34,891 nt of DNA from a bacterium (GTDB taxonomy: Bacteria > Patescibacteriota > Minisyncoccia > Minisyncoccales > UBA10102), in NCBI GenBank assembly GCA_027624865.1, contig JAQBTT010000004.1, forward strand, positions 1 to 34,891. Direction: 5' to 3'. The translations under genes and the position numbers were made by a program. Of this stretch, positions 1,968 to 29,363 are shown in pieces. The notes under the pieces were generated by a model that was given only the letters and a program-made list of their open reading frames with translations, was not told where the DNA came from and did not search any database. Position 1 is the stretch's first letter, and every line of letters starts with the position of its first letter.

Positions 1968-4265
1968 CTATTTTTGCGTAAAATATTTATAAGCTCCAGA
2001 CGGACGAGAAAATGCATATACCTTTAAAATATCCATATGACTTGCAACATGCATTGCACTCTCCATTAACTGCACTGCAAGTGATGCTTTGCCATCCGGC
2101 TCAATCACCTTTGATAAAACAAGCTCAGGATATTTAAGTAGCATGCAGTATCCTAAAGATAGTGTATCTTCTGGCCTTGCTTGAGGCAAGAGGGCAACTA
2201 ATGTTGCACCTTCAGCTCCTCCCTTTGGTTTTTGGTGAAAATTATATACAAGATCCGCCCCTGCAAGAAGGTACGCTTCCATTTCTTCTGGCAAGGGACT
2301 TTTAGGAGTGCTACCTTCTGCAATTTCTTGAGGCTTTGCACTGTTGCTACAAATAGAAACACATACAATTTTATCACCCTCCTCTTGATTTGTTTTTAAG
2401 GTTACATCCCCTGTTAGCTCTTGGTAACTAAGCTTTGCAATCTCTTCTTCTTTTAATGATGTCTTTATAAAACTTATGAGGCCTGCTACATTATCTTTTG
2501 TATCAACTCCAATAATCACAATGCCGTTTTCAACGTGCGAGGCAAAAGTATCTTCATCTATGCGCATCGGTTGCCAGCAATAATTGAAAAGAGTAAAGGC
2601 TTGCTTCATATATCTCTTCTCATCTTTAATAAGCCTGAAAAAGATATACTCATTATTTTTTGCAACAAGCGTAATTTGTTCAAGTGCACTTTCTGCCATA
2701 TTCTTTTTTATAACAGCGCGTTGTACCTTTCCAGTTGTAGTTCTTGGAATGAAAAACTCTTCAATAACCCCAATATACTTTGGCTTTTCAAAATCAGGGA
2801 ATTCCTTTGATGAAATAATCTGATGCGCAAGCTGTGTCTTAAGTTTTTCAACTGACTTTTCGCTCTTTTTAAAACAAACTACCGCGCCGACCTCCTCTCC
2901 AAATCTCCTATCATCCACCCCTATAACATACACCTCGCTAATATCTTTACACATTTTTCTTAAGCGTTCCTCAATACTTACTGGAGACAAGTTTATGCCT
3001 CCTTTAATAATAATTTCCTTTATCCTTCCTTTCAAAAAGAAGTACCTTTCCTCACCAATATTCTTGTAATACCCAAGATCTCCAGTTAAAAAGTATCCAT
3101 TTAAAAACGCTTTCTTGTTCTCGTCTGTGTTTTGCACGTACCCTTTCATAATGGCAGGGCCTTTTACTGCGACCTCCCCTTCCTTTCCTTCCTTTAGTAT
3201 ATTGCCTTTACTGTCCATAATCTGCACATCTGCCCATTTCATTTCTTTCCCAATACTATTTTTGGCAAGCAAAATTTCATGCATGCCTTTTTCAAGTCCC
3301 ATAGGCACTCCCGTAACTCGCAAGGCAGTTTCTGTCTGTCCATATCCTTGAAATAGGGGGATACCAAACTTCTCCATAAACTCCTTTGCGTCAGCTGGAA
3401 CTACGGGAGCCGAGCCAATCTGAATTCTACTTATTTTTAGTTCTTTTTTTACCTCATTAAATTCTTTTTCTCGCGAAAGTTGATCGTAACAAATTGTAGG
3501 AACAATAGAGGTAAAAGTACACTTGGTTTTTGCCAACTGTTCCCAGAACCTGGAGTGAGAATATGTTGGGGGCACCACGATACTTGCTCCTGCCAAAAGA
3601 GATGCGAGACAAAACGTTGTTGAGTTTATATGATGCAAAGGTAGTAGCACGCAAAATCTATCCTCCTTTCTAATTTGTAGCCAATTGTAAATCCCATCTG
3701 CATTAGTGAGGATGTTCTCAAGGGTTAGTTCGGCTCCCTTAGGTGCTGCCGTAGTTCCAGATGTAAACAGTATCATTGCGCTGTGCGCGGTTCCTTTCTC
3801 CCATGCAGGGGCAATAATCACCTCATTGTGCTGCAAAGATTCATTAATGTTTACAACCTTTACATGCTCTTTAATGCTTTCAAAATCAATAGGAGAAAAT
3901 ATATCCTCTTTTGTGATAAGAAGTGTTACTTTGGCAAGCTGCACTTTATACAAATGCTCTTTTTGAGTATCGCGTTTAATGTCTAAAGGAACAGTAACAA
4001 TGCCCATTGCCCATGCGGTCCAAGAAATAAGCAAAAACTCTACGCTGTTTGGCAGGGCTAACGCAACAATATCTCCTGCACATAGCCCAAGCTCACGCTC
4101 AAACCAAACCCCAGTTCTCTCAACTATCTCTTGTACATCTTTATAAGTATATGTTTTCTGTGCATTTCCATGACTATCGCACGATAAAAGCGCCTCCTTT
4201 TCAGGGTACTGCGTGGCAAGGCTCAAAATATGTTCATAGAGATTTTTCACAGATAAAACATTCAA
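1968..4265 (-). CDS. AMP-dependent acyl-CoA synthetase/ligase with about 240-aa C-terminal extension (possibly GNAT-like)
   Basis: ANL signatures ILFTSGTTAAPKGAELT, GYGQTE, YFLTGDLGY, GRIKEIIIKGGINLSP, TTGKVQR; extension past the usual ANL C-terminus. Confidence 0.85.
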   Translation of the reverse strand: MNVLSVKNLYEHILSLATQYPEKEALLSCDSHGNAQKTYTYKDVQEIVERTGVWFERELGLCAGDIVALALPNSVEFLLISWTAWAMGIVTVPLDIKRDTQKEHLYKVQLAKVTLLITKEDIFSPIDFESIKEHVKVVNINESLQHNEVIIAPAWEKGTAHSAMILFTSGTTAAPKGAELTLENILTNADGIYNWLQIRKEDRFCVLLPLHHINSTTFCLASLLAGASIVVPPTYSHSRFWEQLAKTKCTFTSIVPTICYDQLSREKEFNEVKKELKISRIQIGSAPVVPADAKEFMEKFGIPLFQGYGQTETALRVTGVPMGLEKGMHEILLAKNSIGKEMKWADVQIMDSKGNILKEGKEGEVAVKGPAIMKGYVQNTDENKKAFLNGYFLTGDLGYYKNIGEERYFFLKGRIKEIIIKGGINLSPVSIEERLRKMCKDISEVYVIGVDDRRFGEEVGAVVCFKKSEKSVEKLKTQLAHQIISSKEFPDFEKPKYIGVIEEFFIPRTTTGKVQRAVIKKNMAESALEQITLVAKNNEYIFFRLIKDEKRYMKQAFTLFNYCWQPMRIDEDTFASHVENGIVIIGVDTKDNVAGLISFIKTSLKEEEIAKLSYQELTGDVTLKTNQEEGDKIVCVSICSNSAKPQEIAEGSTPKSPLPEEMEAYLLAGADLVYNFHQKPKGGAEGATLVALLPQARPEDTLSLGYCMLLKYPELVLSKVIEPDGKASLAVQLMESAMHVASHMDILKVYAFSRPSGAYKYFTQK

Positions 4266-4892: not shown

Positions 4893-5858
4893 TTATTTCC
4901 CTCCCATAATCTTTATAATCTGACGAGCCAATTTATCTGAGTCATGGCGAATGAAGCCTTGGGGGCGCAAAAGATTTGTTCTTACAACCTCAAAGTTCTT
5001 ACCCTTAAAATCCTCTGCCCCGTATTCCACAAACTCCGCCTTTTCCTTCTCGTACTTTTTAATTCTTGCAAAAGAAGGTCTTTTACTGTTTAAAAAAACA
5101 TAATCTATTACCTCTTCCCCTATGTACTGCTCAATTACTGCAACAAAATCTTTTGCGTGAAAACTATGCGTTTCCCCAAACTTTGTCATAAGGTTACACA
5201 CATATATTTTCTTTGCTCTGCTTTTTTGCACTGCCTCTTTCATCCCTCCAAGGAGGAAATTAGGAAGTATGCTTGAATATAAATCTCCTGGTCCAATGAT
5301 AATGGCATCTGCTTTTTTTATTGCCAAAAGAGCTTTAGTATTTGCCCGGGCCTTAGGTTCAACCCACACCTCCTTAATTTTTAACATTCCATCATGACTT
5401 GGCACATCAATATTATGCTCACCTGTAATAATCTTTCCATTTTCTAGCTTGGCAACTAAGTGAATGTGCTCAAGAGTAGAGGGGATTACCTGTCCCTGTA
5501 ATTTTAAAAGTTTTCCTGCCTCTTCTAGCGCTTTTTCAAAACTACCAAGTTGGTTTGTTAGCGCAGTAAGAAATAAGTTACCAAAGTTATGACCATTAAG
5601 ACCACCACCTTTATCAAAGCGGTACTCAAAGAGCTTTGCTAAGGATTCTTCTGCATTTGATAGAGCAACCATAGCAGGCCTCACAGAACCCGGGGGTAAT
5701 ACCCCAAACTCCTCTCGAAGTTGCTTCGTAGATCCCCCATCATCTGCCATGGAAACTATTGCAGTAAGATTCACGGGGTATTTCTTTAAACCAGAGAGCA
5801 CGGTGTAGGTTCCGGTTCCACCTCCAATAACCACAATGTTCTTTTGTTTTTTTATCAT
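4893..5858 (-). CDS. yvcK: YvcK/GlmR (CofD-like) gluconeogenesis factor
   Basis: VVIGGGTGTYTVLSGLKKYP, VSMADDGGSTKQLREEFGVLPPGSVRPAMVAL, GPGDLYSSILPNFLL. Confidence 0.9.
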   Translation of the reverse strand: MIKKQKNIVVIGGGTGTYTVLSGLKKYPVNLTAIVSMADDGGSTKQLREEFGVLPPGSVRPAMVALSNAEESLAKLFEYRFDKGGGLNGHNFGNLFLTALTNQLGSFEKALEEAGKLLKLQGQVIPSTLEHIHLVAKLENGKIITGEHNIDVPSHDGMLKIKEVWVEPKARANTKALLAIKKADAIIIGPGDLYSSILPNFLLGGMKEAVQKSRAKKIYVCNLMTKFGETHSFHAKDFVAVIEQYIGEEVIDYVFLNSKRPSFARIKKYEKEKAEFVEYGAEDFKGKNFEVVRTNLLRPQGFIRHDSDKLARQIIKIMGGK

Positions 5859-7713: not shown

Positions 7714-10356
7714 TTAGTAAGAAACAAGGTTTAACAATCTTCCCTTCACAAACACTACGTTCTTTGGTTTTTTTGTAGGGAACCATTTTTGTATCTTCTC
7801 TTGCGCCAAAGCCAAAGCAACAGCCTCCTTCTCTTTGATACCAGGGGAAACTTCCACAACATCTCTTACTTTTCCATTTACCTGAATCACCAGACGAACA
7901 ACTTTTTCTTCCAATGCCTTTGGATCATACTCTGGCCAAGGCTGATTATGTACACTCCCCTCATTACCAAGCTTTTCCCAGAGCTCTTCTGTTAAATGGG
8001 GAGCAAAGGGCGAAAGAAGAATCAACAATGCATTAAATTGATCGAGTGTCACTGTCTTTTTTGAAAACTCATTTGAGTACTCCATGAGCGCTGCAATAGC
8101 AGTGTTATAACGAAGACCTTCCAAATCCTCAGTCACCTTCTTTATAGTTCGATGCCTTACCGCCTCAATTTCAACCCCTTGCGCCAAAACTCCACTACTA
8201 CGTAGTAGCAAAGTTTCCGCCCTCTTCTGTAATTGAGCATTTTCAGCAAAAGACCAAAGCCGGTTGAAGAATCTAGAAATACCAACAATCCCTTTATCTG
8301 ACCAGTCTCCACCTTCGCCGAGAGGACCAATAAACATTAAGTATGTTCGCACTGTATCTGCACCGTACTTTACAAAGTATTCATCTGGATTGACTACGTT
8401 CCCCTTGGACTTGGACATCTTGGCTCCCTCCTTAGTAATTAACCCATGGGCACGAAACTTTTTAAAAGGCTCTTCAAACTCAATATGCCCCATGTCTTTG
8501 AGCGCCATAGTGATGAATCTAGTGTAGAGAAGATGGAGCACTGCATGTTCATGCCCCCCAATGTACATATCTAAGGGAAGCCACCGCCGTGTAATCTGCT
8601 GATTCCACGGAATTTCTAATTTCGAATTTCTAATTTCTAAAACTGAATTCTTGGCCTCTACTGACGGATATCTTAAAAAATACCATGCTGAATCCAAGAA
8701 TGTATCTGAAACATCTGTCTCTCTCTTTGCTGGTCCTTTACATTCAGGGCATGTAGTTTCAACGAAGCTAGCAACCGAGGCTAATGGGGACTTCCCAGTT
8801 CCAGAAGGTCTGAAATCTTCAACATCAGGCAACAATACTGGAAGATCTTTTTCTTTGACAGGAACAATCATATGCTCTTTTCCCTCAATAATCGTATAAT
8901 CATGTCCTACGATTAAATTTCGGATTCCGGATTTCGGATTTCGGATTTCCCAGCATTTACGACAGTAAATGATGGGTATGGGAGGACCCCAGTATCGCTG
9001 GCGAGAGATGAGCCAGTCACGAAGATGATACTGCGTCTTGGGTTCTGCAAGTCCTTTTCTAATTACATATTTGATCACTTCTTGCCTTGCGTCACCAGCA
9101 CGTTTCCCAGAAAATTCATTGGGCTCCGCAAGATAACCATTGAGCATATCCGTATAGCACTCTTCGAGTTTCTCTACCCTTACCTTCTGCTCTTTATCTT
9201 TAGGAAACAATACAGGTTTCAATCGAATTCCATACTTTTTCGCAAAGGCAAAATCTCTCTCATCATGAGCAGAGCATTTTACGATACCTGTCCCATACTC
9301 CTTAATCGCATAGCTTGCAACCCAAATAGGTAAATCACCATTACCAACGGGATCAACTATATATCTCCCAGTAAAAATACCTTCGAATTTTTTTTCTTCT
9401 ACATAACCTTCTTTCTCGCGATTTTCGACTATCTTCTGGGAAAAACTCAAAATCTCTTTTTTATTTGGTACATCTTCAATCAAGGTCTCGAGTAACGGAT
9501 GGTCTGGGGCAATAACTACGAACGTGTCAGCCTGAAAAGCCTCAAAATGAGCCGAAAATGTTTGAATGTGAAGCTTTGAATTCTTAACAGGAGCAGTAAA
9601 GACAAGGCCTTCACTTTTACCAATCCAGTTTCTCTGCGCAATCTTTGTCTTCTCGGTCCAATCAATCCATTCTAAGTTTTTAAGTAAACGCTCTGCGTAC
9701 TTAGTAATACCAAAAAACCATTGCTCAAGCTCCTTTTGGATTACCTCAGAATTGCACCGCTCGCACTTTCCGTCAATAACTTGCTCATTAGCCAACACGG
9801 TCTTGCAAGAAGGGCACCACTCAACAGGAGCTTCTTTTTTATATGCAAGCCCTGCTTTGTATAATTGCAAAAAAAGCCACTGAGTCCACTTGTAGTACTC
9901 TGGTTCTGAAGTAGTTACACTATGCTCCCAATCAAAAAGACCTCCCAAGTGCTTAAGCTGCAAAGTAAAATTTTTAATATTCTTTGCAGTTTGTTCCTTG
10001 GGATGAGTTCCCTGCTTTATAGCAAAGTTTTCAGAATGGATACCAAAAGAATCAAACCCCATTGGTTCAAATACATCATTTCCTCGCATTCGCGCAAAGC
10101 GTCCATGAATATCAGAGCCGACAAAAGCATAGACGTTCCCCACATGTAATCCTTCGGCTGAAGGATACGGAAACATCATTAAGTTATAGTAAGGCTTTTT
10201 GGCCTTGGCCAAATCAACCTTCCAAGTCTTCTGACGTTCCCATTTAGTGCGCCACTTCTTTTCTATCTGTTGATGGTTATATCTATCCATTTTGCCCCTG
10301 CCCTCCGTAGCTTTATGCGAAGGAGGGTCTATTTTTTGATGATCGTAGCGCTCCAT
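7714..10356 (-). CDS. leuS: Leucyl-tRNA synthetase
   Basis: MFPYPSAEGLHVGN, KMSKSKGNVVNPD, FLDSAWYFLRYPS, YIGGHEHAVLHLLYTRF. Start may be the second Met at 10290. Confidence 0.97.
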   Translation of the reverse strand: MERYDHQKIDPPSHKATEGRGKMDRYNHQQIEKKWRTKWERQKTWKVDLAKAKKPYYNLMMFPYPSAEGLHVGNVYAFVGSDIHGRFARMRGNDVFEPMGFDSFGIHSENFAIKQGTHPKEQTAKNIKNFTLQLKHLGGLFDWEHSVTTSEPEYYKWTQWLFLQLYKAGLAYKKEAPVEWCPSCKTVLANEQVIDGKCERCNSEVIQKELEQWFFGITKYAERLLKNLEWIDWTEKTKIAQRNWIGKSEGLVFTAPVKNSKLHIQTFSAHFEAFQADTFVVIAPDHPLLETLIEDVPNKKEILSFSQKIVENREKEGYVEEKKFEGIFTGRYIVDPVGNGDLPIWVASYAIKEYGTGIVKCSAHDERDFAFAKKYGIRLKPVLFPKDKEQKVRVEKLEECYTDMLNGYLAEPNEFSGKRAGDARQEVIKYVIRKGLAEPKTQYHLRDWLISRQRYWGPPIPIIYCRKCWEIRNPKSGIRNLIVGHDYTIIEGKEHMIVPVKEKDLPVLLPDVEDFRPSGTGKSPLASVASFVETTCPECKGPAKRETDVSDTFLDSAWYFLRYPSVEAKNSVLEIRNSKLEIPWNQQITRRWLPLDMYIGGHEHAVLHLLYTRFITMALKDMGHIEFEEPFKKFRAHGLITKEGAKMSKSKGNVVNPDEYFVKYGADTVRTYLMFIGPLGEGGDWSDKGIVGISRFFNRLWSFAENAQLQKRAETLLLRSSGVLAQGVEIEAVRHRTIKKVTEDLEGLRYNTAIAALMEYSNEFSKKTVTLDQFNALLILLSPFAPHLTEELWEKLGNEGSVHNQPWPEYDPKALEEKVVRLVIQVNGKVRDVVEVSPGIKEKEAVALALAQEKIQKWFPTKKPKNVVFVKGRLLNLVSY
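8187..8216. repeat. LLRSSGV-family palindrome in leuS
   Basis: AAACT cca CTACTACGTAGTAG caa AGTTT. Confidence 0.8.
8611..8638. repeat. 4 x 7-bp tandem repeat in leuS
   Basis: AATTTCT AATTTCG AATTTCT AATTTCT. Confidence 0.85.
8918..8945. repeat. 4 x 7-bp tandem repeat in leuS
   Basis: TTTCGGA TTCCGGA TTTCGGA TTTCGGA. Confidence 0.85.
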
Positions 10357-10435: not shown

Positions 10436-11302
10436 ATGACCATACCAAAATTCCAAAAACTTATCCTAAATTGGAGTATGGAAAATAGAAGAGATATGCC
10501 TTGGCGCAATACTCACGATCCCTATAAAATCTTGGTGTCTGAAGTTATGTTGCAACAAACTCAAGTTGCAAGGGTTCTTTTAAAATACAAAGAATTTTTA
10601 AAAGAGTTTCCAACCTTACAATCACTTGCAAGGGCGTCAGATAAAAAACTTCTTTTTGTGTGGGCAGGTCTTGGGTATTGGAAACGCGCTCTCTCTTTAA
10701 AAAAGACTGCGCAAATAATAGCGCGGAACTACCAAGGGAAGTTCCCAAAAGAACCCACGCTTCTTACAAAGCTTCCTGGTATTGGTCCATATACCGCAGG
10801 AGCTGTTGCATGCTTTGCTTTTGGACATCAGGAAGCTTTCCTCGACACGAATATAAGAAGAGTCTATCTTTATTTCTTTTTTCCTCCTTCAACAAGCTCA
10901 GGACAAACAAGCAAAAAAGTTTCAGACAAAGAAATTCTGGCAATAGCTCAAAAAGCACTTATATCATTACCAAACCATGGTACGGTATTGATACAACCAA
11001 TCATTACTCCACGAGAATGGCACTATGCCCTTCTTGATTATGGCGCTGTAGCTTTAAAAGATAAGAGGATAAATAAGCAGAGCCAACACTACAAAAAACA
11101 AAGTAAATTCACAAACTCTTTTCGTTCATTTCGCGCTCAAGTACTCCACTTTCTTTTACAGGAGCCAAAACAAACTGCAACTATAAATAAAATTGAGAAA
11201 TTACTTACAAAAGTAAAGAGTCCTTACAAATCAAAAGAGATTCTTCTTGCGCTCACAAAAGATGGACTCGTAAAAAAGAAAGGTACCTCCTACTCCATTT
11301 AA
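10436..11302 (+). CDS. mutY: A/G-specific adenine glycosylase, apparently lacking the [4Fe-4S] cysteines
   Basis: PWRNTHDPYKILVSEVMLQQTQVARVL, LPGIGPYTAGAVACFAFGHQEAFLDTNIRRV. Confidence 0.92.
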   Translation: MTIPKFQKLILNWSMENRRDMPWRNTHDPYKILVSEVMLQQTQVARVLLKYKEFLKEFPTLQSLARASDKKLLFVWAGLGYWKRALSLKKTAQIIARNYQGKFPKEPTLLTKLPGIGPYTAGAVACFAFGHQEAFLDTNIRRVYLYFFFPPSTSSGQTSKKVSDKEILAIAQKALISLPNHGTVLIQPIITPREWHYALLDYGAVALKDKRINKQSQHYKKQSKFTNSFRSFRAQVLHFLLQEPKQTATINKIEKLLTKVKSPYKSKEILLALTKDGLVKKKGTSYSI

Positions 11303-14680: not shown

Positions 14681-16118
14681 GAAAGAGGGATTCGCCTTTT
14701 CCCTCTTTGAGTTGCTCTGTAATTTTCTCTGCAGTTTCTGGGAGAAAGGGCTGCAGGAGTTTCGCGATATGGGAAAGAGCAAAAAGCAAATCCTCTATCA
14801 CTTCTCGTTGCTCTGCAGATTCTTCCCAGGGACGCTTTTGCTCAATATACCTGTCGCAAAACTGAATCAGGCGCCAAATACTTTCGAGCGCTTCGTTAAA
14901 CCGAAATTCTTCCAGTGCCTCAGCGCACTCCTTGTTTACACTCTCAATTATATGCTGAATTTCCAAATTATTCGCCGAAACTCCACTGCTACGTAGTAGC
15001 GAAGTATTAGCAGAATTCTGCGCCATGGTTACTACCCGCGAAACAAGATTACCCAAACCGCTTGCAAGGTCTGCGTTGTACCTTGTTTCAAACTTCTCAT
15101 AGCTAAAGTCCCCGTCTCCTGTAGAAGGAATCTCGCGCAAGAAAAAGTAGCGCACAGCGTCAACGCCATACTTTTTCACCAACTCAAAAGGGTCAATAAC
15201 ATTGCCAAGGGTTTTTGACATCTTTTGTCCGTCTATTGTCAGATAGCCATGAACAAATAGTGTTTTAGGCAAAGGCAAGCCTGCAGACAAAAGAAAGGCA
15301 GGCCAATACACAGCGTGAAAGCGAGTAATCCCTTTTCCAATGACATGCACATCTGCTGGCCACCACTTCTTGTACTTTTCCTCATCAAGCCCAAAACCCA
15401 CTCCTGATTGGTATATATTGAGTGCTTCCAGCCAGACGTAAATTTTTTGGCTATTATCCCCGGGAACAGAAACACCCCAGTTCTTTGCCCGCTCATTCGT
15501 ACGAGAAATGCTAATGTCTTGCAATGAGTTCTTTAAAAAAGCCAACACCTCATTCTTCCTTGTTATAGGCACAATACGCAGTTCATCTTTCTCTATCAAC
15601 CCAACAAGCTTTTCTTGATACTTTGAAAGTTTAAAAAAGTAGTTCTCCTCCGCAACTGTTTCCAGCTTTCTTCCTGGGTGTTCAAAACACTCCTGGTTTT
15701 CGTTCAGCTCGTCTGGGGTATAAAAAGTTTCACATCCTACGCAATAGAGACCCTCGTAAGACTTTTTGTAAATGTCTCCTGCTTTATCGCAAAGCTCCCA
15801 AAACTTCTGGATGGAAAGATGATGTTCCGGGCTGCTACCTTTTTGAAACACGTCAAATTGCACATTGAGATTTTTTGCCAAGTCCAAAAAAAGCTGTGCG
15901 TTTCTATCAACAAACTCTTGTACGGGAATTCCGGCCTGCTCTGCTGCCTGCACGTTTTTTAAGGCGTTCTCATCTCCGCCAGACAACAGCAAAACCTCCT
16001 CGCCTTTCAGGCGGTGAGAGCGCGCTATGACATCTGTTTGTACAAACTCCAACAGATGCCCCGCGTGGGGAACCGAGTTTACATACGGTATTGCAGTTGT
16101 GATATAAAACTTTGCCAT
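14661..16118 (-). CDS. metG: Methionyl-tRNA synthetase
   Basis: MAKFYITTAIPYVNSVPHAGHLLEFVQTD, KMSKTLGNVIDPFEL. Confidence 0.96.
   Translation of the reverse strand: MAKFYITTAIPYVNSVPHAGHLLEFVQTDVIARSHRLKGEEVLLLSGGDENALKNVQAAEQAGIPVQEFVDRNAQLFLDLAKNLNVQFDVFQKGSSPEHHLSIQKFWELCDKAGDIYKKSYEGLYCVGCETFYTPDELNENQECFEHPGRKLETVAEENYFFKLSKYQEKLVGLIEKDELRIVPITRKNEVLAFLKNSLQDISISRTNERAKNWGVSVPGDNSQKIYVWLEALNIYQSGVGFGLDEEKYKKWWPADVHVIGKGITRFHAVYWPAFLLSAGLPLPKTLFVHGYLTIDGQKMSKTLGNVIDPFELVKKYGVDAVRYFFLREIPSTGDGDFSYEKFETRYNADLASGLGNLVSRVVTMAQNSANTSLLRSSGVSANNLEIQHIIESVNKECAEALEEFRFNEALESIWRLIQFCDRYIEQKRPWEESAEQREVIEDLLFALSHIAKLLQPFLPETAEKITEQLKEGKGESLFPRLRQV
14978..15007. repeat. LLRSSGV-family palindrome in metG
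   Basis: AAACTCCACTGCTACGTAGTAGCGAAGTAT, near-identical to the leuS copy. Confidence 0.8.
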
Positions 16119-16798: not shown

Positions 16799-17470
16799 TC
16801 AATCTCGCTGCACAAGTACGACAAATTCTCCTTTTGCAAACTTTCCTTCCAGCTTCTTTTGCACTTCTTTAATGCTCCCCCGATAAACCGTCTCAAACTT
16901 TTTGGTAAGCTCTCTTCCCACAACCAACAAGAGACTAGGAGCCAATTCTTCCAACTCATGTAAGCTTTTCATGATCCTATGAGGAGATTCATAAAACAAG
17001 GTAGGATGCTTACTTCCTACTACTTCTGCAAAGAACTTCTCTCTTCCTTTCTTGTGCGGAGGATATCCTAAAAACAAAAACTTATCTGTTGGAATACCTG
17101 CAATGCTCAAAAGAGTGACTGCAGCTGAAGCTCCTGGCACAGGAACAATCTCCATCTCTGGATTATTTTTTAAAAGAAAGGCAACAAGTTCATTTCCTGG
17201 ATCGCAAACACCTGGGGTTCCAGCATCCGTCACTAAAGCAAGGTTCTTCCCTTCGGAAAGAAGCTGAAGGGCTTTTTCCATTACGCTCCCTTTGCTGTGC
17301 TGATGGTAACTTATCAAGGGAGCCCGAATCTCATAATGCACCATTAGCTTTTTTGTAACTCTTGTATCTTCTGCTAAAACAAAATCAACCTCTTTTAGGG
17401 TTCCAAGAGCTCTTATCGTTATATCCCCAAAATTCCCAATGGGAGTAGCAACAATGTAGAAAGTTCCCAT
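16799..17470 (-). CDS. rsmI: 16S rRNA (cytidine1402-2'-O)-methyltransferase
   Basis: MGTFYIVATPIGNFGDITIRALGTLKEVDFVLAEDTR, LVTDAGTPGVCDPG; start set after the upstream palindrome. Confidence 0.92.
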   Translation of the reverse strand: MGTFYIVATPIGNFGDITIRALGTLKEVDFVLAEDTRVTKKLMVHYEIRAPLISYHQHSKGSVMEKALQLLSEGKNLALVTDAGTPGVCDPGNELVAFLLKNNPEMEIVPVPGASAAVTLLSIAGIPTDKFLFLGYPPHKKGREKFFAEVVGSKHPTLFYESPHRIMKSLHELEELAPSLLLVVGRELTKKFETVYRGSIKEVQKKLEGKFAKGEFVVLVQRD

Positions 17471-17472
17471 AG

Positions 17473-17520
17473 TCCTGCCTAAGCTAAGCTTAGGAGCTCC
17501 TAAGCTTAGCTTAGGCAGGA
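17473..17520. repeat. 48-bp perfect palindrome (KLSL family), between the permease gene and rsmI
   Basis: TCCTGCCTAAGCTAAGCTTAGGA GC TCCTAAGCTTAGCTTAGGCAGGA. Confidence 0.95.
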
Positions 17521-17528
17521 ATACTGGC

Positions 17529-18560
17529 TTAGACGATGACAGAATTTTCTTCTTTGCGCTTCTTGAGAAAATCTCGCAAGAATTCAAATATAATACCTGA
17601 TAGAGGAATTGCCAAAATAGCTCCCATAATCCCCCAAAGCTGCATTCCCACAGCCAATGCTATCAGCACCAAAGCAGGAGGAATACCCAAGAATTTCCTA
17701 GTTAAAATAGGAGTTAAGATGTTTCCTTCAATCTGCTGGATAAGTGTAAAGGCAAGAAGGATAAAGATTGCCTTAAGTGTAGAATCTAGAGCAACAACAG
17801 TAAACAGGAGAAGTCCCGTTACCAAGGGCCCAATGATAGGGATAAAGTTTAAGATGGTTGCTAGCAGTCCAAGGGAAAATGGATACTGCACATTAAAGAG
17901 GAACAAGGTAAGGTAGGTTGCGACACCAACAAAGATAGAGGTGATAAGCCGCGAGGCAAACCAACCTGAAACCTTACGCTGAGAGCGTGACCATAAGTCC
18001 AATGCAAATGTCTCATACTTCTTTGGGAATAAAAGGCCTATGGTTTTCTCAATAGACTTTTCTTCAATAGAAAGGAATATAGCAATGGAGAGGACAAATA
18101 TGGTGGAAAAGATTCCTCCAAATACCACAAACAAAGCAGAGAAAATACTCCCTGCAATCTTCTCTACTCCCAAGCTTAAAGAATCAAAAAAGGTTTGAAC
18201 ATCACTAAATGCTGCAATCCCAAGTCCTTGGAAAACCGGAGATAGCGTTTCAAAGTATTGGGGAAAGAGTTGAGAAAACCGATGAATCTCACTTACAAAG
18301 AACGGCGCCATACTCCAGAGGATAAGCGTTAACACTCCAAAGACAGTGGAGTACATGCCAATGGCTGCTAAAACTCGAGGGATATGAAATCGTTGCAAAA
18401 AATCAATGGCAGGGTCAAAGAGGATAGAGATGATCAACCCAAAAAGCACCCATACCATAATATCCTTGGTCAAAAATAGTATATATATCACAAGACCAGC
18501 CACTGCAATCTTTACAATTGTGGACCAAGAAATATCCAATAGTCTTGATTGTTCACTCAT
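17529..18560 (-). CDS. AI-2E family transporter/permease
   Basis: Multiple TM segments; GLLATILNFIPIIGPLVTGLLLFTV; GNILTPILTRKFLGIPPALVLIALAVG. Confidence 0.88.
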   Translation of the reverse strand: MSEQSRLLDISWSTIVKIAVAGLVIYILFLTKDIMVWVLFGLIISILFDPAIDFLQRFHIPRVLAAIGMYSTVFGVLTLILWSMAPFFVSEIHRFSQLFPQYFETLSPVFQGLGIAAFSDVQTFFDSLSLGVEKIAGSIFSALFVVFGGIFSTIFVLSIAIFLSIEEKSIEKTIGLLFPKKYETFALDLWSRSQRKVSGWFASRLITSIFVGVATYLTLFLFNVQYPFSLGLLATILNFIPIIGPLVTGLLLFTVVALDSTLKAIFILLAFTLIQQIEGNILTPILTRKFLGIPPALVLIALAVGMQLWGIMGAILAIPLSGIIFEFLRDFLKKRKEENSVIV

Positions 18561-24543: not shown

Positions 24544-27510
24544 CTATAACTTACGCATCCCAAGCCAAAGTTTCTTACCATCTAAGACGATTTCCCGCTC
24601 AACATCAAACACTTGTTTTGGTCGCGCGCCCTCTAGAAGATCTTTAATGCCTCCAATCTTTACAATGGTCTCTTTATGACGCAAAAACAGATTCTTTGCG
24701 CCAGCTTCTCCAGTATAGCGCAAAAGCACCCGATGCTCTGGCTTATATCCTGCATCTTTTCTCATCCCCTGCACATAGCGAAGTAACTCCCGAAGCGTTC
24801 CCTCTTCTTTGAGTGCTGGAGTAAGTGTAGTGTCAAGTTGCACATCTTCCTTTGCTGTAACGTCCATGACAACTTCCTTTACGTTCAATTCATCTTGAAG
24901 TAACGGCAAAACTTCTTCTCCAAGTTTTTCCTTAATGGTAAGTTTTGCTAAAGGCTGGCGCACCTTTATCCCTTCCTTTGCTCGCAGAGCCAACCCTTTG
25001 CTTGCAGTACTTCTTACTTGCTCCATTTGTTTTTCCAGCCTTGCGTTTTGTCTTTTCTTTTCCGCCTTTGGCCAATCTGCAAGGTGTACACTCCCCCCCA
25101 CAACTAATGGACTAGTGTGGGGGCGAGCCCCCACACTCATTTTTGAGTAGTGAGGGCTTCCTTTCCCATTTGTCTTTTCAAAGATATGCTCTGCCAAGAA
25201 AGGAATAAAGGGGGCGGCGAGCATACTTGTTTGGGAAAGCACGGAACCAAGAGTTGAGACTGCTTCATGCAGCTCTTTCTTGCTTTGTGGATTTTGGAAC
25301 CTGTTTCGGGATCTGCGAATATACCATAAAGAAAGATCATCAACCACAAAGGATTCAAGGGCGCGGGCAGCTCCCGTAATGTCATAGGTATCCATGCTTT
25401 TTGTCATATTTGATGCTGTCGTGTTCAAGCGAGATACAATCCACTGATCTAGCACATTCCTGCCTAAGCTTAGCTTAGGAGCTCCTAAGCTAAGCTTAGG
25501 CAGAAGCTTTGGAGCATAGGTTTCATAAAATACCAAAGAGTTCCAAAGCGTTAACATAAACTTCCTCAAGGTTTGCTGTAAATCTTTTTCAGAAAACAGC
25601 TTTGGATCCCAAGGATGATTGAGAGTATAAAAATACCAACGTACCGCATCCATGCCATACTTATCTGCCATATCCCATGGACTTACCACATTCCCTTTGG
25701 ACTTGGACATCTTCAACCCCTTCTCATCTAACACATGCCCAAGGGAGATAACATTTTTAAAAGGAGCCCCCTTCCCCAAAAGCGTGGATACGGCAAGCAA
25801 GGTGTAGAACCATCCTCGTGTTTGGTCTATGCCTTCCACAATATAATCTGCAGGAAACTCTTGTACCTTCTTTTCCCCCATCCAATGATTTTGCGCAAAA
25901 GGCATGGCTCCAGAATCATACCAAACATCAACCACATCTTTTACTCGTTTCATTGTTCCTTTACACTTTATGCAAGAAAACTCTACCTCATCTATAAAAG
26001 GCCTATGTACGTCAATCTCCTTTTTCCCTTTATATGGGTTACGCAAAAGCTTTTTTCCAAGCAGTTCTTTCACAGAGCCAACAACATCTTTTTCCTCACA
26101 TTTATTGCACTCCCAAATGGGCAAGGGAGTTCCCCAGTACCGTTCCCGCGAAAATGCCCAATCCTTCACTTCCTTTAACCATTCTCCCATTCTTCCCTCT
26201 TTTAAATGCCCAGGAATCCAATTTACCTTTCGATTATTTGCCAATAGCTGTTTTTTTACTTTCTGCATTGAGATAAACCAGCTTTCCTTTGCATAGTATA
26301 AAAGAGGGGTAGAGCATCTCCAGCAAAAAGGGTACTCATGTTCATACAGCTCTTCTTTCAGCAAAAGCCCTGCCTTTTTTAAATCAGCCACAATCAAAGG
26401 ATTAGCATCTTTCACAAACTTTCCTACATATGGTGCTGCCTCTTTTGTAAACTTTCCTTGTTCATCCACTAAATGTAGCATGGCAAGATTCTCCTTTTTC
26501 CCAAGCTCAAAGTCTTCTGCTCCATACGCAACCGCAGTATGCACAATACCTGTTCCGTCCTCTGTTGAAACAAAATCTGCTGTGACAACTTCCCATATCT
26601 TTTTTCCCTCTTGTGGCTTTCCAAAACGAAATAGAGGTTCATACTTTATCCCTACAAGATCTTTTCCAAGAAAGGTTTTTACCACGCTATATTCTCCAAG
26701 TACTTTTTTTGCAAGGCTTTTTGCTACAATATAGTATTGCTTTTCTTTTTTCACTAAGACATAGGGAATACTCGCGCCAACTGCCAGCGCAACGTTTCCA
26801 GGCAGAGTCCAAGGAGTGGTGGTCCAGGCCAAAAAATAAGTATCTAGTATTTTGTATTTTGTATTTAGTATTTTCTTTAAACTTTCTGGCGGTATCTTGA
26901 ATTTAGCATACACCGAAAGATCTTTTACCGTTTTGTACCCTTGAGCAAGTTCATGGGAAGAAAGAGAAGTCCCACACCGCGTGCAAAAAGGTACCACCTT
27001 ATAGTCTTTATACAAGAGCCCCTTCTCCCACCATGTTTTGATAATATGCCAAAGAGTTTCAATGTATGGAGTTTCATACGTGATGTATGCATCATCCATA
27101 TCCAGCCATACCCCCGCTCTATCTGTAAGATCCTCCCACTCCTTTTTGTATTTCCATACTGATTTTCGGCACTCCTCATTAAATTTTTCAATACCATATT
27201 CTTCAATATCTTTTTTGGACTTGAGTCCCAGCTGCTTCTCTACTTCAAGCTCCACAGGAAGACCATGAGTATCCCACCCAGCTTTTCTGGGGACAAAAAA
27301 TCCTCGCATGGTTTTATAGCGAAGCACGACATCTTTAAAGGATCGTGCTGCTATATGGTGCAGCCCTGGCCTTCCATTTGCAGCAGGTGGGCCTTCATAA
27401 AACACAAAAGAAGGAGAGCCTTTTCTCTTAGCAACAGATTTTGCAAAGGTTTTATCTCGCTCCCAACGCTTGAGAATTTGTTCTTCCAGCTTGGGAAAAT
27501 TTGCTTCCAT
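24544..27510 (-). CDS. ileS: Isoleucyl-tRNA synthetase
   Basis: FYEGPPAANGRPGLHHI, KMSKSKGNVVSPWDMADKYG, AWTTTPWTLPGNVALAV. Confidence 0.97.
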   Translation of the reverse strand: MEANFPKLEEQILKRWERDKTFAKSVAKRKGSPSFVFYEGPPAANGRPGLHHIAARSFKDVVLRYKTMRGFFVPRKAGWDTHGLPVELEVEKQLGLKSKKDIEEYGIEKFNEECRKSVWKYKKEWEDLTDRAGVWLDMDDAYITYETPYIETLWHIIKTWWEKGLLYKDYKVVPFCTRCGTSLSSHELAQGYKTVKDLSVYAKFKIPPESLKKILNTKYKILDTYFLAWTTTPWTLPGNVALAVGASIPYVLVKKEKQYYIVAKSLAKKVLGEYSVVKTFLGKDLVGIKYEPLFRFGKPQEGKKIWEVVTADFVSTEDGTGIVHTAVAYGAEDFELGKKENLAMLHLVDEQGKFTKEAAPYVGKFVKDANPLIVADLKKAGLLLKEELYEHEYPFCWRCSTPLLYYAKESWFISMQKVKKQLLANNRKVNWIPGHLKEGRMGEWLKEVKDWAFSRERYWGTPLPIWECNKCEEKDVVGSVKELLGKKLLRNPYKGKKEIDVHRPFIDEVEFSCIKCKGTMKRVKDVVDVWYDSGAMPFAQNHWMGEKKVQEFPADYIVEGIDQTRGWFYTLLAVSTLLGKGAPFKNVISLGHVLDEKGLKMSKSKGNVVSPWDMADKYGMDAVRWYFYTLNHPWDPKLFSEKDLQQTLRKFMLTLWNSLVFYETYAPKLLPKLSLGAPKLSLGRNVLDQWIVSRLNTTASNMTKSMDTYDITGAARALESFVVDDLSLWYIRRSRNRFQNPQSKKELHEAVSTLGSVLSQTSMLAAPFIPFLAEHIFEKTNGKGSPHYSKMSVGARPHTSPLVVGGSVHLADWPKAEKKRQNARLEKQMEQVRSTASKGLALRAKEGIKVRQPLAKLTIKEKLGEEVLPLLQDELNVKEVVMDVTAKEDVQLDTTLTPALKEEGTLRELLRYVQGMRKDAGYKPEHRVLLRYTGEAGAKNLFLRHKETIVKIGGIKDLLEGARPKQVFDVEREIVLDGKKLWLGMRKL
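25114..25137. repeat. Perfect palindrome inside ileS
   Basis: AGTGTGGGGGC ga GCCCCCACACT. Confidence 0.85.
25460..25503. repeat. 44-bp perfect palindrome (KLSL family) in frame in ileS
   Basis: CTGCCTAAGCTTAGCTTAGGA GC TCCTAAGCTAAGCTTAGGCAG; encodes LPKLSLGAPKLSLGR. Confidence 0.95.
26845..26872. repeat. 4 x 7-bp tandem repeat in ileS
   Basis: TAGTATT TTGTATT TTGTATT TAGTATT. Confidence 0.85.
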
Positions 27511-27552: not shown

Positions 27553-27587
27553 TAGGACTGCTTGAAACCCGGTTTCAAGCAGTCCTA
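27553..27587. repeat. 35-bp perfect palindrome supplying the argS stop codon
   Basis: TAGGACTGCTTGAAACC c GGTTTCAAGCAGTCCTA. Confidence 0.95.
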
Positions 27588-29363
27588 CATTTGCTCTAGA
27601 GTTTTGATGCCCAAAAGGTGAAGAGAGTTTTGGATAATCTGAGCTGTCGCTGAAGTAAGCAAGAGACGAAAGTCCTTTTGCTCTTTAGTATCTGCTTTTA
27701 ATACACGATGCTTTGCATAAAAATTATTGTATGCTTGAGCTACATCAAACACAAAACCTGCAACCATATGGGGGGTAAAGTTTTTTGCGCTATCTCGCGC
27801 TACTTCAGGGAATCTATACAGTAGCCGCAACAAAACTACCTCCTCTTTAACTAAGCTAAGCTTAGCAAAACTTACTAAGCTTAGCTTAGTTAAAGGTTCT
27901 GTTTCGCGAAGAATACTCTTGCACCGCACATAGGTATATTGAAGGTAGGGACCACTCTCTCCTTGTAAGCTCAAAGACTTTTCAAAATCAAAAATAATAT
28001 CTTTCCCAAGGCTCACGCGAAGCAAAGAGTATTTTATTGCGCCTATTGCAATAGTTTCTGCTGCACTTTCCTGTTCCTCTTTTGCCACCTCACTTTCTGA
28101 GGATTTCATAATGTCGCGTACCCTTCGCTTCACCTCATCAATCAATTCTTCTCCTGTCACAATATTTCCACTACGACTGGACATCTTTCCTTCTGGCAGG
28201 CGCACCATTCCATGTGAAAGATGCTTAGTTTTTTCGCTAAGCATTGGATCAATTTCCTTTAGCGCGGCAAGCAGTACCTTGAAGTAGTCAATGATTTCAT
28301 TTCCCGTGATAATTAAAGAAAGGTCATACTGAAAATCCTTGTACTTTGTAGGGGCGAGTCCAAGTTCCTTTGCCTCATACGTTGGCAATCCCTTGGAGTT
28401 AATAAATACTCTGCTATGTAAGCCGTATTTCTCCCCAGGAAAAATAATTGCTCCTTGGCTTTTCTCAAAGATTCCTTTTTTTACTCCCTCTTCCACAATC
28501 TTTTTTCCTATCTTTGCAGAGTCACTTTCAAAGTAGTAGGTATCAAACTTTGTTCCAAGACGCTCATACATTTGTTTAAAATAGTCAAGGCTCCATTTTT
28601 TGCCTTGCTCATATAAACGATTAACTTCTTTATCGCTTTTATCATATACAGCTGTATTAATTTCATTGATTCTTTTTGTATCATCACTCTCTTCTTGTTT
28701 CTGCCAAGAATCTCTACTATCTTTTGGAGAGCCGACAAGAAGGATTTTATCTACTGGCTCATACACTGAATTACCATACGCATAGCATGCACCTAAAAAT
28801 TGAGCTTTTTTTGAAAGCGAAGCTTTCTCTTCTGGCATCTGGTGTGAGGATTGCTGCATTCCCCAAATTGCCTTTGCAACATGCAGTCCAACATCCCCTT
28901 GGTAGTTCACGCGCTTCACTTCTGCTCCTTGTAACTCAAGAAGTCTTGATATGCTCTCTCCTGCAGCATTGCTATATAAATGCCCAATATGAAACTCTTT
29001 AAATGGATTTGGGTCAGTAAACTCCACCATCACTTTTTTCTTTCCTTCCCCGCGCCCATACTTTTCTTTCTTTCCCGCTATCTCTTTTGCTTCTCTTATA
29101 AAGTACTTTTTGGTTAAAAAGAAATTTAAAAACCCAGGACCTGCTACCTCGACTTTTTCGAGGAAATCCAAAGCACGAATATCGAAATTCGAAACGATAG
29201 ATTCCGCGACTTCGCGGGGATTCTTGCCGAGCTGTTTTGCCAAAACTAAGGCGACATTGGTGGAATAGTCTCCATACTCCATATTCTCTGGGTGCTCAAA
29301 AACAATCTCCGCGTCATCACTGAGCGCCTTCCTTACCATCTTTTCCAGTTCCTTCACAATCAT
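27585..29363 (-). CDS. argS: Arginyl-tRNA synthetase
   Basis: VEFTDPNPFKEFHIGHLYSNAAGESISRLLE, HLSHGMVRLPEGKMSSRSGNIVTGEELI, YLQYTYVRCKSIL. Confidence 0.97.
   Translation of the reverse strand: MIVKELEKMVRKALSDDAEIVFEHPENMEYGDYSTNVALVLAKQLGKNPREVAESIVSNFDIRALDFLEKVEVAGPGFLNFFLTKKYFIREAKEIAGKKEKYGRGEGKKKVMVEFTDPNPFKEFHIGHLYSNAAGESISRLLELQGAEVKRVNYQGDVGLHVAKAIWGMQQSSHQMPEEKASLSKKAQFLGACYAYGNSVYEPVDKILLVGSPKDSRDSWQKQEESDDTKRINEINTAVYDKSDKEVNRLYEQGKKWSLDYFKQMYERLGTKFDTYYFESDSAKIGKKIVEEGVKKGIFEKSQGAIIFPGEKYGLHSRVFINSKGLPTYEAKELGLAPTKYKDFQYDLSLIITGNEIIDYFKVLLAALKEIDPMLSEKTKHLSHGMVRLPEGKMSSRSGNIVTGEELIDEVKRRVRDIMKSSESEVAKEEQESAAETIAIGAIKYSLLRVSLGKDIIFDFEKSLSLQGESGPYLQYTYVRCKSILRETEPLTKLSLVSFAKLSLVKEEVVLLRLLYRFPEVARDSAKNFTPHMVAGFVFDVAQAYNNFYAKHRVLKADTKEQKDFRLLLTSATAQIIQNSLHLLGIKTLEQM
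27845..27895. repeat. 51-bp inverted repeat (KLSL family) in frame in argS
   Basis: CTTTAACTAAGCTAAGCTTAG n9 CTAAGCTTAGCTTAGTTAAAG; encodes LTKLSLVSFAKLSLVK. Confidence 0.95.

Follow-up and report, generated by a model that had tools for sequence, protein, structure and literature searches.

In-frame palindromes in ileS and other genes of a Patescibacteria genome, probable REP-like elements mobilised by a resident RAYT

The window (the whole stretch of DNA analysed, 34,891 nucleotides) holds the gene ileS on its minus strand (24544-27510, 988 aa), and within this gene, at 25460-25503, lies a palindrome of 44 bp that is translated in frame. The question raised by this locus is what kind of sequence the palindrome is, how it came to stand inside a protein gene, and whether it has relatives elsewhere in the genome and in the family to which the genome belongs.

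The palindrome in ileS and its copies in the genome

The palindrome described in the initial annotation as perfect is real: 25460-25481 and 25482-25503 form two arms of 22 nt with 100% complementarity and no loop between them. Its translation in the ileS frame, LPKLSLGAPKLSLGR on the minus strand, is confirmed as well. It is built of two near-palindromic hairpin units of 17 bp (CCTAAGCTnAGCTTAGG) around AGCT, with a spacing of 21 bp. The predicted single-stranded DNA fold of the region has an energy of -22.9 kcal/mol versus -8.6 +/- 1.9 kcal/mol for shuffled sequences (z = -7.4). In the protein the insert spans approximately aa 670-685 and is immediately followed by the anticodon-binding domain (Pfam Anticodon_1, 688-855).

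Regarding the related palindrome that had been placed at 17473-17520, a second 21-spaced copy is confirmed at 17475-17518; an open reading frame runs through it, but as it is situated between two genes (gene end at 17529, probable rsmI ATG at 17470), just upstream of the likely start of rsmI, it is not clearly coding. The inverted repeat noted in argS (27585-29363, minus strand, 592 aa) is a third, in-frame copy at 27845-27895 on the minus strand, with a spacing of 24 bp and 24-bp arms; it encodes LTKLSLVSFAKLSLVK inside the match to the DALR anticodon-binding domain.

The annotation had further proposed that other IleRS proteins have a short loop at this position. The loop is indeed shorter there, but relatives without the palindrome of this genome, whose peptide reads KLSL, already have 11-17 residues at the site and the net gain in the alignment is about 4-10 residues, which rules out a clean insertion of 15 residues and indicates that the loop was partly overwritten, not purely added to. 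Ancestral coding sequence without a palindrome, which the annotation had named as the finding that would refute an insertion, is ruled out as well, since the residues are not common to the orthologues, which carry other palindromes or none.

The 15-bp core CTAAGCTNAGCTTAG occurs in 66 exact copies, grouped in 38 clusters, in the 559-kb genome (G000), and in 78 copies if up to two mismatches are allowed; the reversed control pattern gave no exact copy and one with up to two mismatches in the same 559 kb, so that the copies are not due to chance. Their density is low (about one cluster per 15 kb). By spacing, the clusters divide into 11 singles, 16 doublets whose units are 21 or 24 bp apart, and 11 doublets with a 25-bp spacing, which include one triplet. 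Twelve of the 16 doublets with 21- or 24-bp spacing are in frame inside genes, namely ileS, argS, tsaD (two), cca, pth, uvrC, dprA, rnhB, murE, murL and a capA-like gene (names mostly from profile searches, the CapA-like one from sequence motifs), versus 0 of the 11 doublets with 25-bp spacing (Fisher p = 1.8e-4). With two singles (in uvrC and at the end of truB), 14 of the 38 clusters (about 37%) lie in genes, in open frame, and the majority is still found outside genes.

The two architectures differ in their coding capacity. The 21-spaced core has a single open frame on each strand and encodes PKLSLGAPKLSL both ways, whereas the 25-spaced core, in the one representative tested, has stops in all six frames, so that selection against broken genes suffices to explain their segregation. 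The 25-spaced form usually has TTATCCACA, TTATCCCCA or a similar sequence as spacer, and in a sample of 217 kb 11 of the 14 occurrences of TTATCCACA adjoin a hairpin (25-spaced copies, e.g. L032:3728-3792). The TTATCCACA tag is missing from the in-gene 21-spaced copies.

Other repeat-like inserts were also seen in the window. A second, imperfect palindromic insert of another family (SPHYSKMSVGARPHTSPLVVG, about 22 residues) is present in ileS at 25095-25156; it is absent from all 13 aligned relatives and constitutes a cleaner insertion than the one at 25460-25503. Both leuS (window positions ~8600-8960) and IleRS (aa 215-225) contain inserts exemplified by RNPKSGIRN, LEIRNSKLEI and ILNTKYKILDT, and similar direct-repeat peptides fill like loops in relatives (tsaD in G001, cysS in G003, ileS in G006 and G024). 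The element CTACTACGTAGTAG, at 8195-8208 and 14974-15011, reads LLLRSSGV in leuS and LLRSSGV in metG, with a further copy at L033:4948. A MutY-like gene (10436-11302) carries FFPPSTSSGQTS, which resembles another in-frame repeat insert. In many members of the family (e.g. L063, L065, L074) ileS has about 190 extra residues after query aa ~493, in ORFs of 1150-1210 aa; this stretch is possibly an intein.

The same protein sites in related genomes

A genome of the same genus, G002, has a palindrome family of its own, CCTAAACGAGATTTAGG, which reads KRDLG or KSRLG. Its palindromes occupy the KLSL sites of ileS, tsaD (both), cca, dprA, murL, pth and murE, and a degenerate form is found at the rnhB site; in leuS, the site of its KRDL insert is taken in G000 by the LLLRSSGV element mentioned above. 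Palindromes are also present at the ileS, argS and some other sites of G003 and G014, and at ileS, argS and rnhB of G001; the relatives' palindromes at the site of the third copy, in argS, are different ones. Core identity between sites is 97% within G000 and 83% within G002, whereas between these two genomes it is 68% for corresponding sites and 67% for non-corresponding ones; the stem thus follows the genome, not the site. An exception is pth of G014, which carries the G000 stem, and the stems of G014 are mixed.

Independent insertions into hot or permissive sites might account for all of this site sharing, with older copies neither replaced nor converted, a reading which is compatible with mobilisation by a RAYT and which we regard as a serious possibility, though not the favoured one. 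The same loops hold unrelated repeats (tsaD in G001, leuS in G000, cca in G014, murE in G001) and are thus generally permissive, and RPE-4, RPE-6 and RPE-7 of Rickettsia posed the same question (PMC3767692). Against it, G000 and G002 share the insert boundaries, exactly or nearly, at the first tsaD site and in cca, murE and murL; in pth they do so for the left boundary. Moreover, the congener G004 (98% complete) is without palindromes and has short or decayed loops, yet it keeps a decayed half-copy of the G002 type (2 mismatches) at the uvrC site, and perhaps another at the murL site, which suggests that an older, ancestral copy was later replaced in G000. When orthologous sites were compared across the relatives, no clean empty site was found and no target duplication could be defined.

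A RAYT gene linked to the palindromes

Five Y1_Tnp matches were found in the G000 genome. One of them, outside the window at C11:4237-4944, is a RAYT-type Y1 transposase gene (PF01797 match, E 2e-8) that is bracketed by the palindromes: upstream of it lie the cores at 3728-3792 and 4150-4189, and downstream the core at 4959-4973, with tandem copies beside the gene. The structure predicted for an orthologue, with a mean pLDDT of 91, was compared with 350,542 PDB chains by fold search, and the best match was 4er8, a RAYT bound to a REP hairpin (E 1.6e-6); by sequence search the RAYT profile had no match among PDB chains, so that the fold search alone succeeded. The clade of this RAYT has an invariant NHxH, and the predicted fold is that of Y1/HUH TnpA. 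The motif NP(L/V)(R/K)xG close to the Tyr, which was defined on gammaproteobacterial RAYTs (PMC2817692), is absent from the clade, which has INPGQE in its position.

In a tree of 34 RAYTs the C11 protein falls into a clade of eight (support 100/99). Palindromes around TTATCC[AC]CA stand beside the gene in seven of the eight members of this clade versus none of the 26 others (p = 1.5e-6). The gene is located together with comF, dprA and comM in G000, G002, G003 and G014, and the same locus is present in several public Patescibacteria MAGs, including Candidatus Wildermuthbacteria. The stem that flanks the RAYT is the same as the in-gene stem in G000, G002 and G014.

Regarding the 25 genomes of the family, tagged palindromes were found in 16 (control: 0). 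All nine genomes with a RAYT of the clade have them, whereas nine of the 16 clade-free genomes have none (p = 0.008), among them the near-complete relatives G008, G013 and G015. In G004 no RAYT of the clade was found, only a remote Y1-type match (E 5e-23). Seven genomes have tagged palindromes and no detected RAYT of the clade, four of them being less than 90% complete. Despite base changes, Watson-Crick pairs persist at positions 3-5 in 73-79 of the 89 distinct tagged stems that were listed.

The other RAYTs of G000 were rejected as movers, as the palindromes beside them show no amplification in the sampled 217 kb; those of L018, L019 and L017 each adjoin a palindrome of their own (GGGCTAAAACnGTTTTAGCCC, GGGCTAAGACTGTCTTAGCCC and CTTCGCACCCCGGGGGTGCGAAG, respectively) with few or no further copies there. 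The only RAYT of the clade in G002 (L091:4043-4760) contains one in-frame TAG, which reflects either recent decay or a sequencing error.

Nature and origin of the elements

Quite probably the palindrome in ileS belongs to a REP/REPIN-like family of non-autonomous elements that need, or until recently needed, the resident RAYT for their spread and that are tolerated in protein loops. The RAYT would act on single-stranded hairpin units (CTnR...YnAG stems with the tag TTATCCACA or TGTGGATAA), copies would land in many places, and selection would then prune them. The 25-bp-spaced form, stopped in every frame of its tested representative, would survive outside genes only, and the 21-bp-spaced form, with the same open-frame peptide on both strands, would survive in permissive loops of essential proteins. 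These loops would be re-used, the current stem of a genome replacing earlier stems at orthologous sites by re-insertion or conversion. Mobilisation by the RAYT is opposed by several findings, as the in-gene 21-spaced doublets are tagless, a classical GTAG head is not clearly present, the NP(L/V)(R/K)xG motif is absent, tagged palindromes occur in seven genomes free of the RAYT clade, the RAYT of G002 has an in-frame stop and the copies of G014 are not uniform.

A more far-reaching form of this proposal is rather speculative. The RAYT of the comF-dprA-comM locus might maintain the palindromes genome-wide, many of them within essential genes, and rewrite them in concert as its stem preference shifts; through TTATCCACA the system may be linked to DnaA or to the processing of incoming ssDNA. 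If so, the loops of unrelated enzymes would change their sequence together.

It is unlikely that the palindromes are a selected DNA signal (clusters of DnaA boxes, or uptake or recombination signals) kept by a binding protein, with the RAYT a bystander or domesticated for competence. The spacer TTATCCACA is identical to the DnaA-box consensus, the RAYT gene lies beside comF, dprA and comM in several genomes, and stems that are uniform within a genome and differ between genomes are what a signal tracking its reader would show. However, that spacer is missing from the in-gene 21-spaced copies, a single cluster per 15 kb or so is a low density, palindromes are absent from near-complete relatives (e.g. 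G008, G013 and G015), and tandem copies next to the RAYT suit a mobile unit.

MITE or RPE-type elements moved by another transposase, with a secondary association of the RAYT, are a less likely explanation still. In-frame palindromes in essential genes are the hallmark of RPEs (PMC10969869, PMC3767692), and tagged palindromes also occur in some genomes that lack the RAYT clade; but the clade is specifically associated with the TTATCC-spaced type of palindrome, and the identity of in-gene and RAYT-flanking stems in three genomes also speaks for the RAYT. That the inserted peptides are useful to their host proteins and under positive selection is very improbable: the same proteins are hit across species, but from species to species it is the DNA palindrome that persists and not the peptide (KLSL, KRDL/KSRL, KLRL and others), the proteins that host it are not related to one another, and G004 manages without inserts. 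An artefact of assembly or binning, to be considered for metagenome-type assemblies of which one has an N gap next to its ileS palindrome, is practically excluded by copies in different unique genes and by palindromes at orthologous sites of separately assembled genomes, one of which is a single 671-kb contig.

The RAYT-mobilised element here favoured shares with REPs and REPINs the short dispersed palindromic units, often in inverted doublets, the variable stems with palindromy kept, and a RAYT gene of the 4er8 fold flanked by the same palindromes. In size and number it comprises doublets of 38-44 bp, within the 20-60 bp expected of REPs and made of a 15-17 bp unit, and the 66 exact cores given above; REPs usually exceed 100 copies, and the present genome has fewer. 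A GTAG (or GT[AG]G) head 5' of the stem is not clearly present: GTAG itself is lacking, the spacer TGTGGATAA has GTGG four bases from the stem, and the in-gene 21-spaced copies are headless. Further differences are the TTATCCACA spacer, the Patescibacteria host, the RAYT in a competence-gene locus and its lack of NP(L/V)(R/K)xG. REPs are mostly extragenic (in Pseudomonas fluorescens SBW25 14 of 1067 overlapped genes; PMC3116915), whereas about 37% of the clusters here are in frame in genes. The element is therefore called REP-like and not a plain REP, as its location and RAYT motif depart from those of REPs and a GTAG head is not clearly present.

Intragenic GTAG/CGTC REPs have been described in Opitutus terrae, Rickettsia conorii and others. 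They are in-frame singles or dimers, and their hosts are truB and genes for repair proteins and tRNA synthetases, of which some hold two; in one case different REPs occupy approximately the same recB site (PMC3733652). In-frame singles and dimers in such genes are common to both; the present elements differ in the absence of a GTAG/CGTC tag and in about a dozen sites compared across species, most of them shared, with species-specific stems.

The resemblance to Rickettsia palindromic elements (RPEs) suggested in the initial annotation holds for the behaviour, since RPEs are in-frame palindromes in protein genes (PMC10969869, PMC3767692) and 14 clusters are here in open frame in genes. The closer kin are REPs and REPINs, in view of the palindrome-flanked RAYT, the clade association and the 4er8 fold. 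RPEs are set apart by their description as elements of approximately 100-150 bp with an internal ORF, as opposed to the 38-44 bp seen here, and the available parts of the RPE reports name no RAYT as their mover, whereas a flanked RAYT is present here. A further parallel is that one place may be occupied, or nearly so, by RPEs of different groups in different orthologues (RPE-4/6/7; PMC3767692).

In-frame REPs (PMC3733652) and in-frame RPEs with different groups near one locus (PMC10969869, PMC3767692) are thus already known. No report of REPs or palindromes in Patescibacteria was found in the open-licence literature; as far as that literature shows, new features are the tag, the proportion of in-gene copies, the RAYT in a competence locus, the wide range of shared sites at which the stems are species-specific, and the host group itself.

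The mover and the turnover of in-frame palindromes have been left unsettled in Rickettsia and in the few REP-rich bacteria. In this streamlined Patescibacteria family the pieces occur together. A single RAYT clade is found at a locus that is largely syntenic, its palindromes stand in about a dozen housekeeping genes, the stems at shared protein sites differ by species, and a genome of the same genus that is free of the RAYT clade has decayed sites. The spread of the copies and the joint change of loops in unrelated essential proteins thereby become testable by genome comparison.
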